Source: Alphaproteobacteria bacterium (GTDB taxonomy: Bacteria > Pseudomonadota > Alphaproteobacteria > Micavibrionales > Micavibrionaceae). Taken from it: 64,000 nt of DNA. Below the pieces are notes generated by a model. That model had not been told where the DNA came from. It was given only the letters and a program-made list of their open reading frames with translations, and made no database searches. Made by a program: the position numbers and the translations under genes. Position 1 is the stretch's first letter. Every line of letters starts with the position of its first letter. The stretch is from positions 496,001 to 560,000 of the forward strand of contig JAUHVY010000002.1 of the NCBI GenBank assembly GCA_030424975.1. Reading direction: 5' to 3'. Positions 3,236 to 10,849 of the stretch are shown piece after piece.

Positions 3236-3583
3236 TTATTTTGTTCGGGCGGCTTTTTCATCGTGTCCGGATATGCCGAAACGATCCTGCAAAATGTCGA
3301 AAACATCGGCGGGGTTTACGTCATGATGCGCCATCATAACCATTGTATGAAACAGAAGGTCTGCGGCTTCGCTGCGGATGTTTTTTTGGGCTTCATTATT
3401 CCCTTTATCCTGATCCAGCGCGTAAGCTTCATCGATAAATTCTTGTGCTTCTTCAAGGATCTTTTCTGCGATTTTTGGTGATCCCTTTTCGTATAGGGAT
3501 GCGACATATGATTTTTCACCGCTTGCGGCTTTGCGCTGTTCTAATATGGCGTATAATTGTTCAAGAATATGCGTGCTCATCAT
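3236..3583 (-). CDS. hisE: Phosphoribosyl-ATP pyrophosphatase HisE
   Basis: Hydrolyses phosphoribosyl-ATP to phosphoribosyl-AMP, the second step of histidine synthesis. The 115-residue single-domain MazG-like all-alpha protein has the family's acidic metal-binding helices (KILEEAQEFIDEA and RSEAADLLFHTMVMM). In many alphaproteobacteria hisE follows hisF directly; here two plus-strand orphan genes (3651-6000) lie between them. Two ATGs sit at the start; the first was kept. Confidence 0.93.
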   Translation of the reverse strand: MMSTHILEQLYAILEQRKAASGEKSYVASLYEKGSPKIAEKILEEAQEFIDEAYALDQDKGNNEAQKNIRSEAADLLFHTMVMMAHHDVNPADVFDILQDRFGISGHDEKAARTK

Positions 3584-3650: not shown

Positions 3651-4823
3651 GTGAATAACAGATTTCTAAGCATCGATAAGAAAGCGATTACTGAGCAGGA
3701 CGGGCAAGCCCTTCTGGATCAGAGTTATGCTTTGACGCGTCCGCTTGGTATTGCCACGATGTTTATCCGCCCCGAAGAATTTTCTCCGCACTGGCTTGAG
3801 GGAAAGCCGTCATTGGTCAAAAGCATCATAAGGCCCTTTGATAAAAATGCAAAAATGCGCGATGAGCTTACCGATAAAATTAACGCGTTTTACGAAGGTG
3901 GGCATCTCTCACATCTAAGCGCAGAAGAGCAAGACGAAGCGATGCGTCGATTTCATGAGAATGTGGGAACGATTGCAGATTTGGTTGCACGCACTCGGCT
4001 TAATCCGAAAAGCTTTAATGAAATGGGCGCTGTGGCGCATAATAGTGATTTTTCAAAGCCTGATGAAAAAAGTCCTGAAACGTATAAATCACCCATTAGC
4101 TCTATGATTATTATGCCTATGCAAGAAACGATGGAAACAAGTTTCATTAGTGAGATGATTGGTGAAGAGAGCCAGACAGCAAAAGATTTTTCACAAAGTA
4201 ATTCGCAGATACATTTCATGGCTCTATGGCATGAGATTGGGCATGGTCTTGGCGCAGGCGAACCGCAGACAGAAGCGATATCGGCGATGGTCACGCGCAA
4301 GGCGTTCGAAGACACTGAAGCGCTGGGTGTTTTTGGAGATATACGAGCGTATGTCGCGATTATGCAGCATAATCAAATGCCGGAAGATAGTCGAATTATT
4401 ATTCCCGAGCGTGAGGAATACGGATGGCCGATGGTTGAGGTAAATGATTATGTGCGTAATTTACCTGCCGATAAGATCGATAAGATGACAGAAGGTGATA
4501 TCGTTAATCTTCGTCATCAATCCTTTAATCATCTTGGGCGTAATATTCAAATGGTCGCAGAGATGATGCGCGATAATAATGAAGAGGCCTGGTTGCTCCA
4601 AGACATGAAGGGCTTGGGTGAGATTGCTGGCGATTTAGCAGATAGCCCGTTTTTAGAGGACGGAGAAAAACAAATTGCGCGCCGTTTTAAATTGGCCTGT
4701 GAAAGATTACGTCTTGGTGCGTCGGCCTATCGCGAGGGAAATAATTTTATTTCATCTGATCTTCAGCAGGCGGATAAACAAGACCCTCTGACATTTACGC
4801 CGGGAGCATATATCCCGGAATAA
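3651..4823 (+). CDS. Orphan protein with HExxHxxGxxE motif, tandem copy 1
   Basis: Not recognised as a named family. The 390-residue soluble protein has no signal peptide or membrane segment. Residues 194-204 read HEIGHGLGAGE, which has the metzincin spacing HExxHxxG with Glu in place of the third His, followed by PQTE; a zinc-peptidase role is therefore possible but unproven. A second block, YGWPMVEVNDY, about 60 residues later contains a Met that could form a Met-turn. The next gene is a paralogue sharing the N-terminal IDKKA-TEQD block, the HEIGH region, YGWPMVE-NDY and the C-terminal TFTPGAYIPE end. Start is GTG at 3651; the only upstream purine run is GCGGGTAA. It is inserted between hisE and hisF on the opposite strand. 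Confidence 0.85.
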   Translation: MNNRFLSIDKKAITEQDGQALLDQSYALTRPLGIATMFIRPEEFSPHWLEGKPSLVKSIIRPFDKNAKMRDELTDKINAFYEGGHLSHLSAEEQDEAMRRFHENVGTIADLVARTRLNPKSFNEMGAVAHNSDFSKPDEKSPETYKSPISSMIIMPMQETMETSFISEMIGEESQTAKDFSQSNSQIHFMALWHEIGHGLGAGEPQTEAISAMVTRKAFEDTEALGVFGDIRAYVAIMQHNQMPEDSRIIIPEREEYGWPMVEVNDYVRNLPADKIDKMTEGDIVNLRHQSFNHLGRNIQMVAEMMRDNNEEAWLLQDMKGLGEIAGDLADSPFLEDGEKQIARRFKLACERLRLGASAYREGNNFISSDLQQADKQDPLTFTPGAYIPE

Positions 4824-4842
4824 AAAGAGCGAATTAAGAGCA

Positions 4843-6000
4843 ATGAGCTTCATTCAAATTGATAAAAAGGCAGTGACAGAACAAGACGCGCAGGACATGC
4901 TGCTGCAGACCTATGCGCTTGCCGATCCGCTGGGGACGCCGACCTTATTCCTAAATCCTGATGATTTCTCAAATCACGGGTTACAAAATATGCCGAAATT
5001 CGTTCAAAGTATTTTTCGTAGTTCCCCCCCATATAGCGGTAAAATCATGGCAGAGGTTCGGGACCGTATTGATGATTTCATTGATGGCGGTGCATTTGAG
5101 CATTTGGAAGGTGGTCAACGTAAACACGTTGAACGTCTTTTAAAGGAAAATGCAGGTGATTTTGAAAAGATAATCAGTGAAGCGAAATTGAATCCGCATA
5201 TACCCAAGATGACGACTCTAATTCATTTTCGTGATGTTTTTAAGGCACATTATTTTCCCGAAGAAGAGTATGAAAGCCCGTTGCGCGCCGTCATCGTAAC
5301 GCCCAGAAAAAATTTAAATGCGTACGATATCCGATCGTATATGACAGGATTACCCGTTGATGATGCGCCCGCATCATTACCCGGCACAAATGCACAACAT
5401 CAGTTTAATATTACCTGGCATGAAATCGGGCACGGCGTCGGCGCTGCGGAACCGCAAACAGAATTAATCGCGGCAAGCGTGACAAAGAAGGCATTCGAAG
5501 ATTGCAGTATCCTAAGTATGAATGCAGATGCACGCGCCGTACGAGCAATTTTTAAACACGCCAATGAACGTGTTGATCAAACTAAATCAGGGGGCTTGAT
5601 CAGAGAGCGTGATAAATATGGATGGCCGATGGTCGAGGCCAATGACTATATCGTTCAGGTTTCTCAGGACGCTATAGATTCCTTAAGCGAGGATAACCTT
5701 GTGCGCATGCGTTTCCAGAAATTCGATCATTTGGGGCAAAGCGTAAAAAGCGTATCTGATGCATTGAAATGGGAAGACCGTAAGGCGTTTCATTCACGCG
5801 ATTTGCAAAGGCTCGGCAGTATCGCTCAGGCATTTTCAGAAAAACGATCAACCCCGTCTGACCAGGCGCAGATCTATGATCGCTTTGCGCTCGCGTGCCG
5901 TCGTTTAAGTATTGGTGAAGATGCCTATGATAATGCCGGTGATCACCCGAGTGAGCAGAAGAGAATAACCTTTTCACCGGGATTTTACGTACCGGATTAG
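4843..6000 (+). CDS. Orphan protein with HExxHxxGxxE motif, tandem copy 2
   Basis: 385-residue paralogue of the gene just upstream (19-base gap), evidently a tandem duplication that has since diverged. HEIGHGVGAAE lies at residues 193-203 and is followed by PQTE; YGWPMVEANDYI and the C-terminal ITFSPGFYVPD match the first copy. The retained HExxH glutamate and both histidines in each copy suggest selection on this site, consistent with metal binding. The N-terminal ~180 residues are more diverged and of unknown fold. No secretion signal. The function is unknown; a cytosolic metallopeptidase is one possibility. Confidence 0.85.
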   Translation: MSFIQIDKKAVTEQDAQDMLLQTYALADPLGTPTLFLNPDDFSNHGLQNMPKFVQSIFRSSPPYSGKIMAEVRDRIDDFIDGGAFEHLEGGQRKHVERLLKENAGDFEKIISEAKLNPHIPKMTTLIHFRDVFKAHYFPEEEYESPLRAVIVTPRKNLNAYDIRSYMTGLPVDDAPASLPGTNAQHQFNITWHEIGHGVGAAEPQTELIAASVTKKAFEDCSILSMNADARAVRAIFKHANERVDQTKSGGLIRERDKYGWPMVEANDYIVQVSQDAIDSLSEDNLVRMRFQKFDHLGQSVKSVSDALKWEDRKAFHSRDLQRLGSIAQAFSEKRSTPSDQAQIYDRFALACRRLSIGEDAYDNAGDHPSEQKRITFSPGFYVPD

Positions 6001-6012
6001 GTGTCATTAACC

Positions 6013-6774
6013 TTACCGTGTAGGAATACCTGCGGCTTTCATCTTCTCTTTCGCTTCTGCAATTGTATATTCTCCGAAATGGAAAATAGAGGCTGCTAAT
6101 ACCGCGCTGGCATGCCCTTCGGTAACACCTTCGACGAGGTGATCAAGGTTCCCCACACCGCCTGATGCAATCACGGGAATGGAAACGGCGTCACTAATGG
6201 CGCGTGTCAGGGGAATATTAAATCCTGCTTTTGTGCCGTCACGATCCATTGATGTGAGCAGGATTTCGCCTGCGCCGTATTCTGCCATTTTAATCGCCCA
6301 CTCTACGGCGTCGATTCCTGTGCCCTTGCGTCCGCCGTGGGTGAAAATTTCCCATCCGGCTGATCCGTCTTCTTTTGCTTTGGCATCAATGGCAACAACA
6401 ATGCATTGGCTTCCGCATTTATCGGATGCTTCTTTGACGAAGTCGGGGTTTTTTACCGCCGCCGAATTGATTGATACTTTATCGGTTCCTGCGTTTAGCA
6501 AATTACGGATATGTGAAATTTCGCTGATGCCGCCGCCAACGGTAAGCGGAATGAAAACTTCGTCTGCGACCTGCTCAACCATATGAATAATGGTATCGCG
6601 CCCCTGATGCGTGGCGGTAATATCAAGAAAGCATAATTCATCTGCGCCTTGATCATTGTAAATTTTGGCCTGTTCAACGGGATCACCGGCATCAACGATA
6701 TCGACAAAATTGACGCCCTTTACGACGCGGCCGTTATCAACATCAAGGCATGGAATAATTCTGGTCTTCAGCAC
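6013..6774 (-). CDS. hisF: Imidazole glycerol phosphate synthase cyclase subunit HisF
   Basis: Cyclase half of IGP synthase; works with HisH to turn PRFAR and ammonia into imidazole glycerol phosphate and AICAR. The 253-residue (beta/alpha)8 barrel begins [20 protein letters not shown] with the catalytic Asp of CLDV, and DRDGTKAGF carries the second catalytic Asp. VTVGGGI- and ASGGVG-type phosphate-binding loops are present. The start is GTG at 6774 with AAAGGGAC ahead of it. Its neighbours hisE and hisA are on the same strand but separated from it by plus-strand genes. Confidence 0.96.
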
Positions 6775-6867
6775 GAAAAATATGTCCCTTTATTTTTAAT
6801 CCGTGTTTTTTATAATACGAAAAGTGTAGGGTGAAAAGAGCAAGCCGTCATGTGCAGGGAGTATTTA

Positions 6868-7407
6868 ATGTTTTCATCGTTGTTTTTATCAAAAACGTTG
6901 CAGATTTTAATATCCCGCCTGCGTGAAGACGGGCAAATGGATGCTGCGGCATATAAACGGTTTAAACGGGTAACCTATAAAAGATTTATTATTCATCTGG
7001 TGTTGGCAATCATTCCTTTGATCGTCGCTTTTAATGCCCCGGATGTAAGCTTCACCCTTAAATCCATTTTATATATCGGATCATATCTTGTGATGCTTAG
7101 TTTTTTTATGGATCATTATAAATTGGCATCGCGTTACGTTGTTTTATACATGACGGGCAATCGTGTTTACGGCAAAACGAAAAGCAGTCATAAGGGCAGT
7201 TCGTCTTTTCCGTGGACGGTTGAATATGAATTTGAGGTCGACGGTCAGACCTATCGCGGTGATAGTGGTAAAATCACACCTGCGCTGGAGCCGTTTAAGC
7301 ACCGCGAAGGACAAGATATTGTGATTTGTTATAATCCGAATAATCCCGACGATAACGCACCCTTATTGCCATCCCTGAAACAGGTTTATCATCTACAGGC
7401 GGAATAA
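6868..7407 (+). CDS. Small membrane protein with DUF3592-like C-terminal domain
   Basis: About 179 residues if started at the ATG at 6868, which has AGGGAG six bases upstream; an earlier in-frame ATG at 6850 lacks such a site. After a charged N terminus come two hydrophobic helices (FIIHLVLAIIPLIVAF and ILYIGSYLVMLSFFM), then a soluble part with a YEFEVDGQTYRGDSGK segment and ICYNPNNPDDN, the pattern of DUF3592 proteins (extended strands ending in a YNP motif). Function unknown. A gene at 54721-55599 has a related domain. A hairpin follows 25 bases after the stop. Confidence 0.75.
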   Translation: MFSSLFLSKTLQILISRLREDGQMDAAAYKRFKRVTYKRFIIHLVLAIIPLIVAFNAPDVSFTLKSILYIGSYLVMLSFFMDHYKLASRYVVLYMTGNRVYGKTKSSHKGSSSFPWTVEYEFEVDGQTYRGDSGKITPALEPFKHREGQDIVICYNPNNPDDNAPLLPSLKQVYHLQAE

Positions 7408-10027: not shown

Positions 10028-10849
10028 ATGGAATATTTGTTTAACAACATTGCCTATCCGATTGTCGCATCCGAAGATGATGTGATCGAAGCATTCGCAG
10101 AGCCAAGTGTGCGCGCTGTGATTTTGCGTGACGATACGTTATGGCAGCAAGACAAACAAATTATTGCCCCCGGCATAACCATGACAGATGCACCGAATGT
10201 TGCGCGCCGTTACCATTACGACCCCAGCGAAGAATTTAATCGTAAAAAGGCCGGTGATATTTCTTATACGGATGTGATTAATGTTTCTGATATGTTGGAG
10301 CAATCATCCATTGCCGCCATAGATGTTGCGCAAGGCGCGGCAGATTTATTAACGCAGCGTGTGAATGAAAAGCGCGCGTTATTTTCAAGATTACATGATC
10401 GATTATTCGGGTCCTTTGATGATGAATCAGTTGTCGGGCATTTAATGTTCACGCCAAAGGGCGGGGTCGGCCGCGCGCCGATGATGCATGTCGATAATGT
10501 GCGTATGACCATGCACACCACCTATGCGGGGGCGTCATTGCGTTTATTAAACGGCATGATAACGGATAAATTATGGGATGGTATGAACCATACAAAAATG
10601 CATGCCTTGCCCCAAGATGTCAGAGATCACAAAGAAGCAGAACTTACATTCCTGACAGAGCAATATGCCGAAGAGTTTAGCGGCGCGCGCATTGGTGATG
10701 ATATCTTTATGAAGGGGCAATTGGGGAAAGATTTGGATGATCTTGAAATTCGTCAATCAATGGGTGTTCATGCATCATCCCCGTATGTTTCTTTTCAGGG
10801 GCAGGCGGCCTCTATCTATTATTCGAAAAAAACCCTCGACATTGCCTGA
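10028..10849 (+). CDS. Orphan protein with HxD motif, DUF1826-like
   Basis: 273-residue soluble protein. Residues 150-175 read as APMMHVDNVRMTMHTTYAG, with His154-Val-Asp156. This resembles the HVD-containing core of DUF1826 proteins (a probable 2-oxoglutarate-oxygenase-like fold) in both the motif and the following TTYAG. A later VHASSP could supply the distal His, but the Arg usually found after it is not evident, so activity is uncertain. It is divergent from hisH and lies 22 bases ahead of hisD, so it may share the hisD transcript. The family assignment is tentative. Confidence 0.7.
   Translation: MEYLFNNIAYPIVASEDDVIEAFAEPSVRAVILRDDTLWQQDKQIIAPGITMTDAPNVARRYHYDPSEEFNRKKAGDISYTDVINVSDMLEQSSIAAIDVAQGAADLLTQRVNEKRALFSRLHDRLFGSFDDESVVGHLMFTPKGGVGRAPMMHVDNVRMTMHTTYAGASLRLLNGMITDKLWDGMNHTKMHALPQDVRDHKEAELTFLTEQYAEEFSGARIGDDIFMKGQLGKDLDDLEIRQSMGVHASSPYVSFQGQAASIYYSKKTLDIA

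Follow-up and report, generated by a model that had tools for sequence, protein, structure and literature searches.

A tandem pair of putative zinc peptidases between hisE and hisF in Micavibrionaceae, proposed as a gluzincin-like family with a short linker

The third zinc ligand and how far it lies from HExxH are used to classify zincins into subclans. In the portions of the sources available, metzincins are described by HExxHxxG/NxxH/D together with a Met-turn (PMC11674741), and the Glu of gluzincins is placed 18–72 residues after HExxH (PMC4580569). The DPP III (M49) of Caldithrix abyssi is, according to the available text of its report, a cytosolic, two-domain enzyme of 558 amino acids, where the zinc ligands are the histidines of HEISH and a Glu of EECKAD (PMC5805324). 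For PF06262, the accessible part of the source records that the third residue differs in some homologues, where the Asp of HExxHxxGxxD is frequently replaced by Glu (PMC3890501).

The two proteins described here carry a Glu at the metzincin distance. On balance, they appear to represent a new gluzincin-like family of probable intracellular zinc-dependent peptidases, in which the linker has shrunk to five residues and the pair has come about by duplication.

A tandem pair within the his cluster

The window, the whole stretch of 64,000 nucleotides that was analysed, contains two tandem genes on the + strand. Copy 1 (P0001, 3651..4823, GTG start) encodes 390 amino acids and is a putative zinc peptidase of the candidate gluzincin-like family, and copy 2 (P0002, 4843..6000), its tandem paralogue, encodes 385 amino acids. 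The two ORFs are separated by 19 bp, and a search of the genome (two contigs, 2.43 Mb) found two copies at E ≤ 0.001. Both ORFs contain W-HEIGHG-x-GA-x-EPQTE, bearing out the original prediction, made from this DNA, of HEIGHGxGAxE followed by PQTE in both proteins; in copy 1, HEIGHGLGAGEPQTE starts at H194, and in copy 2, HEIGHGVGAAEPQTE starts at H193. HEIGH of copy 1 (4230..4244, + strand) would provide two zinc ligands, H194 and H198, and a general base, E195, with EPQTE (4260..4274, + strand) contributing the putative third ligand, E204, and a candidate second-shell acid, E208. The corresponding residues of copy 2 are H193, E194, and H197 in HEIGH (5419..5433, + strand) and E203 and E207 in EPQTE (5449..5463, + strand). 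The H+10 position, that of the third ligand in metzincins, is Glu in both copies. A second family motif is found at D230-x-R232 in copy 1 (4338..4346, + strand) and D229-x-R231 in copy 2 (5527..5535, + strand), and a YGWPMVExNDY block lies ∼60 residues after the HEIGH motif in both, with its YGWPMVE part at 4419..4439 and 5617..5637 (+ strand), respectively.

The left neighbour of the pair is hisE (PRA-PH; 3236..3583, − strand), which is divergent, and the right neighbour is hisF (6013..6774, − strand), which is convergent, both assigned by Pfam. The pair had been described as an insertion into a histidine operon. Its location between hisE and hisF stands; its inclusion in the operon does not, as both genes are on the opposite strand and outside the his transcript. 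The pair thus interrupts the his cluster without being part of its transcript, and co-transcription with the his genes was ruled out by strand. Between hisF and hisA, a further + strand gene (6850-7407) encodes a DUF3592 protein (Pfam), so that the cluster is broken more than once by opposite-strand genes. A 273-aa ORF with no Pfam match (10028-10849, + strand), a further orphan of the cluster, also adjoins the his genes.

The distance between hisF and hisE is at most about 100 bp in 13 of the 18 loci with a clear hisF, a count that leaves out four genomes with only weaker matches. The remaining five are the window's own locus, that of genome G011, which has the gene, two loci whose flank contains no hisE, and one on a cut contig. 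In G011, a single family copy and a GNAT-like ORF are situated between the his genes (hisF identified by search, hisE by reading), and genome G036 has a single family copy between hisE and hisF (both named by reading). Other members are located away from the his genes, as in L012 and L014, where the family gene is found on the opposite strand between ispG-like and RodZ-like genes, also named by reading. Copy 1 and copy 2 are sisters in the tree with moderate support (88/90), and the G011 protein joins them next (94/92). This order makes a duplication that followed divergence from G011, its nearest relative, the probable origin of the pair; a gene would first have been set between hisE and hisF and then duplicated to give the pair. 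Tandem arrangement recurs away from the his locus, in two single-contig genomes of about 2.5 Mb, where L042 1177-3309 (G033) and L043 1231-3318 (G082) are pairs of remote HExxH-x(11-16)-ExxAD proteins, and the first protein of the L042 pair has no Pfam match over the cut-off.

Conservation of the site, linker length, and distribution

A 14-row alignment was made from 13 genomes, with both window copies included and one member (L013) truncated by its contig end. It leaves out duplicate loci, a C-terminal fragment (L022, G085), and a remnant (L020/L049), and the member counts further leave out L083, a frame of 43 aa interrupted by a stop, and matches of the 14-row profile that have no assigned locus. 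The remnant (L020 1474-1929, also L049; G056) is a 152-aa ORF that has both family ends without the HExxH core and looks like an in-frame deletion of the catalytic part.

H194, E195, H198, and E204 (copy 1 numbering) are invariant in all 14 members, so the survey of homologues revealed no free variation of the His and Glu residues in intact members. The two window copies, with 39% identity, have diverged elsewhere and kept this site, as originally noted. E204 heads E-x-x-[AT]-[DE] in every member, with position 208 being D in nine and E in five; D230 and R232 are each present in 13/14, and W193 and G201 each in 12/14. E195 shows the same invariance as the ligands, and this argues for catalysis beyond metal binding alone. 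The same residue bears on the idea of a zinc-binding, non-proteolytic or regulatory protein, whose site would be kept for structure or metal-dependent binding. This idea gains from the persistence of L020 as an open frame without the zinc core, but a catalytic-type Glu in 14 of 14 members would be needless in a purely structural site, and we regard it as improbable.

The zinc site had originally been assigned to the metzincin type on its spacing, and the YGWPMVE block was taken as a possible site of a Met-turn. Neither reading is supported by the sequence. The third residue is Glu in 14/14 members and heads a gluzincin-style ExxA[DE]; HExxH and this Glu are separated by five residues in ten members, by six in the other four, and by 10 in the relatives L039 and L040. 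Met is found in the YGWPMVE block of only four of the 13 members with a letter at that position (P0001, P0002, P0003, and L015), the other nine having A, L, C, P, or T. Both low-confidence models described below predict a helix for this block. Assignment to the metzincins was rejected on the variable linker and the absence of a conserved Met. A metzincin variant, with Glu serving as third ligand where the classical HExxHxxGxxH/D has His or Asp, could still be argued from the exact spacing in both copies and in 10 of the 14 members, from the Gly in 12 of them, and from the third-residue Glu of some PF06262 homologues in the available text of PMC3890501, by which a Glu at metzincin spacing is not wholly unprecedented. 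Against such a variant stand the linkers of 6 and 10, the unconserved Met, and the helical form of the YGWPMVE block in the low-confidence models, and we consider it unlikely.

Linker length was followed outwards in 34 proteins picked for HExxH, namely the 14 members and 20 further remote or neighbouring proteins, in which it is five in four, six in two, and 10–20 in fourteen. All 34 were picked for HExxH, and any test on their common pattern is biased by this choice; L038 2159-3172, L042 2350-3309, and L043 2359-3318 are neighbours of matches and not matches themselves, and L046 fits poorly. Motif-masked N-terminal and C-terminal profiles were built to lessen this circularity, and 1956 ORFs, from loci mostly retrieved with unmasked profiles, were searched. 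The C-terminal profile recovered four intact proteins on which it had not been trained (E 2e-8 to 2.7e-6), L036 and L037 from one genus with linkers of 5 and 5, and L039 and L040 from another with linkers of 10 and 10, all of which have HExxH and ExxAD or ExxGD. It also recovered the C-terminal fragment L022 and the remnant L020/L049. After L020/L049, the N-terminal profile gave weak matches to L043, L042, and L038 (E 0.004-0.012), where the pattern is present. We raise tentatively the possibility of a graded gluzincin series within one lineage, along which the HExxH-Glu loop would shorten from ∼20 residues to 5, where the site matches the metzincin spacing. The family would then stand between MA(E) and MA(M), as a natural intermediate or through convergence, and its linker would be shorter than that of any known gluzincin; steps 5, 6, and 10 of such a series are linked by profile homology and steps 11–20 by weak matches.

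D-x-R is present in the tails of 20 of the 34 HExxH-selected proteins, compared with 6.4 expected from shuffled tails. Either D-x-R or x-R-A-[LIVM] is located about 20–30 residues after ExxA[DE] in core and remote relatives, the D-x-R of L042 and L043 sitting at a different place. In thermolysin an Arg binds substrate, and by analogy the Arg of D-x-R could do the same.

In the genomes sampled, the family is nearly confined to a single order that is related to the predatory bacterial genus Micavibrio, as judged from counts over the order, class, phylum, species, plasmid, phage, and viral searches. A single-sequence search gave matches in 3 of 58 genomes, that of the window counted. Of 142 genomes from the order, 14 had matches to a 4-row profile and 32 to the 14-row profile. 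The 14-row profile matched two of the 385 genomes of the class, one being that of the window, and two of the 398 of the phylum, these being that of the window and one in which the match is the 43-aa frame with a stop (E 7.6e-5). When 84,980 species were scanned with two short conserved peptides, matches were confined to the two nearest relatives. A tblastn search with P0001 (E ≤ 0.1) gave no match in 72,556 plasmid and 50,697 phage records, and no relative was found in viral contigs with the 4-row profile, on which grounds mobile-element cargo was ruled out. For Micavibrio ARL-13, the genome paper gives a total of 49 proteases and peptidases, and in its available text the family is not mentioned (PMC3189940).

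Profile comparisons, predicted structure, and location

Pfam gave no match over the cut-off for any of the 14 members, window pair included, or for 10 remote relatives, the best being GDH_HM1 for L036 (E 0.003, below its cut-off). The two window proteins had no match in NCBIfam and nothing significant in PHROGs (best E 0.07). Sequence searches of the PDB gave a best E of 0.0056 for copy 1, to engineered protein A chains, and of 0.24 for the family profile. The 14 members do not match PF03571 (M49), which has no match in the whole genome, PF01435 (M48), which has four matches in the genome and none in the window, or PF06262 (Zincin_1), whose single match in the genome lies on the second contig. 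On this lack of Pfam matches, the family was excluded from M49, M48, and PF06262. In the literature searched, neither HEXXHXXGXXE nor the linker-5 spellings tried were found, where other wording may exist, and no co-mention of Micavibrionales and metalloprotease was retrieved. With a conserved zincin-type site and no Pfam, NCBIfam, or significant PHROG match, the earlier suggestion of a possible new metallopeptidase-like family is upheld, the peptidase nature being read from sequence.

In M49 and M48 sequences, the motif following HExxH is E-x-x-[AS]-D. Comparison of the family with uncut profiles by hhalign gave 47% and a score of 39.9 for M49, 4% and 28.2 for M48, 30% and 36.6 for metzincins retrieved with the M43 profile (25 loci chosen by the metzincin pattern, seven of them under the Pfam cut-off and several serralysin-like), and 11% and 28.1 for PF06262. 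Natural profiles therefore fail to separate gluzincins from metzincins, with uncut M48 falling below the metzincins; for a metzincin variant, it counts that the uncut metzincin profile scores above uncut M48 and near uncut M49. When the gluzincin loop was cut to five residues, the M49 profile (cut made on 24 of 25 sequences) rose to 89% and a score of 53.2, the best of ten lengths tried, and the M48 profile to 81% and 48.5, the best of six, both aligning in register at the Glu and the acid that follows it. Thus cut, M49 and M48 outscore metzincins and PF06262, which goes against the metzincin variant. The nine other lengths tried for M49 scored 34.1-48.8 and the five others tried for M48 scored 38.6-42.4, and M49 with shuffled tail columns scored 30.7-35.7 in eight shuffles. 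Because off-length cuts also gain, the gain is only partly tied to the exact length of five and partly to a nearer helix, and because the cut itself imposes the spacing, the result supports the kind of helix and is no proof of descent from M49 or M48.

AlphaFold (AF2; two jobs, four sequences) gave low-confidence models, with mean pLDDT 52.6 and pTM 0.62 for copy 1 and 46.7 and 0.49 for copy 2. In these, HExxH lies near the end of a helix (181-199 in copy 1 and 182-198 in copy 2) and a new helix starts from the Glu (204-219 and 203-218, respectively). Foldseek with the weak copy 1 model gave no match at E ≤ 0.001 in PDB and viral sets. The top VIA row for copy 1 is DPP III (6eom; Z 3.3, rmsd 4.5, 153 aligned), within the noise range, and no other zincin was recognised among the matches listed; for copy 2, neither a zincin nor DPP III was recognised among the 50 entries listed (134 chains with Z ≥ 2).

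These results bear on a further reading, in which the proteins would be distant, loop-shortened derivatives of DPP III (M49) and would trim dipeptides in the cytosol. M49 has the top hhalign score of the four sets whether cut (53.2) or uncut (39.9), HEVAHGLG of several M49 sequences resembles HEIGHGLG, ExxAD is found in both, and copy 1 has DPP III as its top VIA match, as noted above. However, Pfam gives no M49 match, a Z of 3.3 is in the noise range, DPP III is absent among the VIA rows listed for copy 2, and the similarity to M49 spans only about 70 columns around the motif. We judge descent from DPP III very unlikely.

The best 15-residue hydropathy mean at the N terminus is 0.99 for copy 1 and 0.74 for copy 2, and by this simple measure neither has a hydrophobic N terminus, in agreement with the original statement that a secretion signal is lacking. 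The window pair is thus likely cytosolic, as judged from sequence. The same measure is at most 1.2 in 11 of the 12 other members. The exception, L019/L035 (2.55), has a lipobox-like PLASC and a lipoprotein-like signal (L019 1000-2337), indicating that the family is not always cytosolic. The remote relatives L038, L050, and L052 have signal-like N termini by eye. Signal-like N termini in some relatives mean that versions of the protein may work outside the cell.

Proposed activity and comparison with known zincins

In gluzincins, the Asp of ExxAD belongs to the second shell. For the gluzincin-like reading favoured here, the two His of HExxH and E204 (copy 1), six residues after the second His, would hold one zinc, E195 would activate water, and D/E208, four residues past the ligand, would sit in the second shell. 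The loop between the HExxH helix and the glutamate helix would have shrunk to five residues, so that the motif mimics that of metzincins through spacing only. Peptides would be hydrolysed inside the cell, with short peptides or cytosolic proteins as conceivable substrates. On this reading, the family would show that the spacing of a motif alone can mislead annotation, and a gluzincin-type Glu at metzincin distance, together with intermediate relatives, would provide a test of whether this distance is a real boundary.

Like the PF06262 mini-zincins (Acel_2062), as far as the available source describes them, the window proteins have HEIGH-xxG-xx-acid spacing and, as judged from sequence, no Met-turn and no signal peptide; PF06262, by contrast, is a domain of 97 positions that stops soon after the motif, and hhalign gives 11%. 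With the metzincins, MA(M), the family shares the third-ligand spacing in 10/14 members and the Gly in 12/14, and differs in having Glu for His/Asp, a spacing that varies, and a Met that is not conserved. M48 has the same ExxAD Glu motif, and its loop-cut profile aligns in register (81%), whereas its linker is 49-80 residues long (25 sequences measured) and its uncut profile gives 4%. DPP III (M49) is similar in its site, HEISH and EECKAD in the text available, and in having the top profile score of the sets tried, but the M49 linker is 25-29 residues (24 sequences measured) and the family has no Pfam M49 match. Compared with the gluzincins, MA(E), as a whole, the linker of 5-6 residues is well short of the 18-72 given in the accessible part of PMC4580569 and no sequence-family match is found, whereas HExxH with a later Glu in 14/14 members, an E-x-x-A-D-like context, a putative catalytic Glu and, in the low-confidence models, a Glu predicted to start a separate helix are features that the family appears to share with them.
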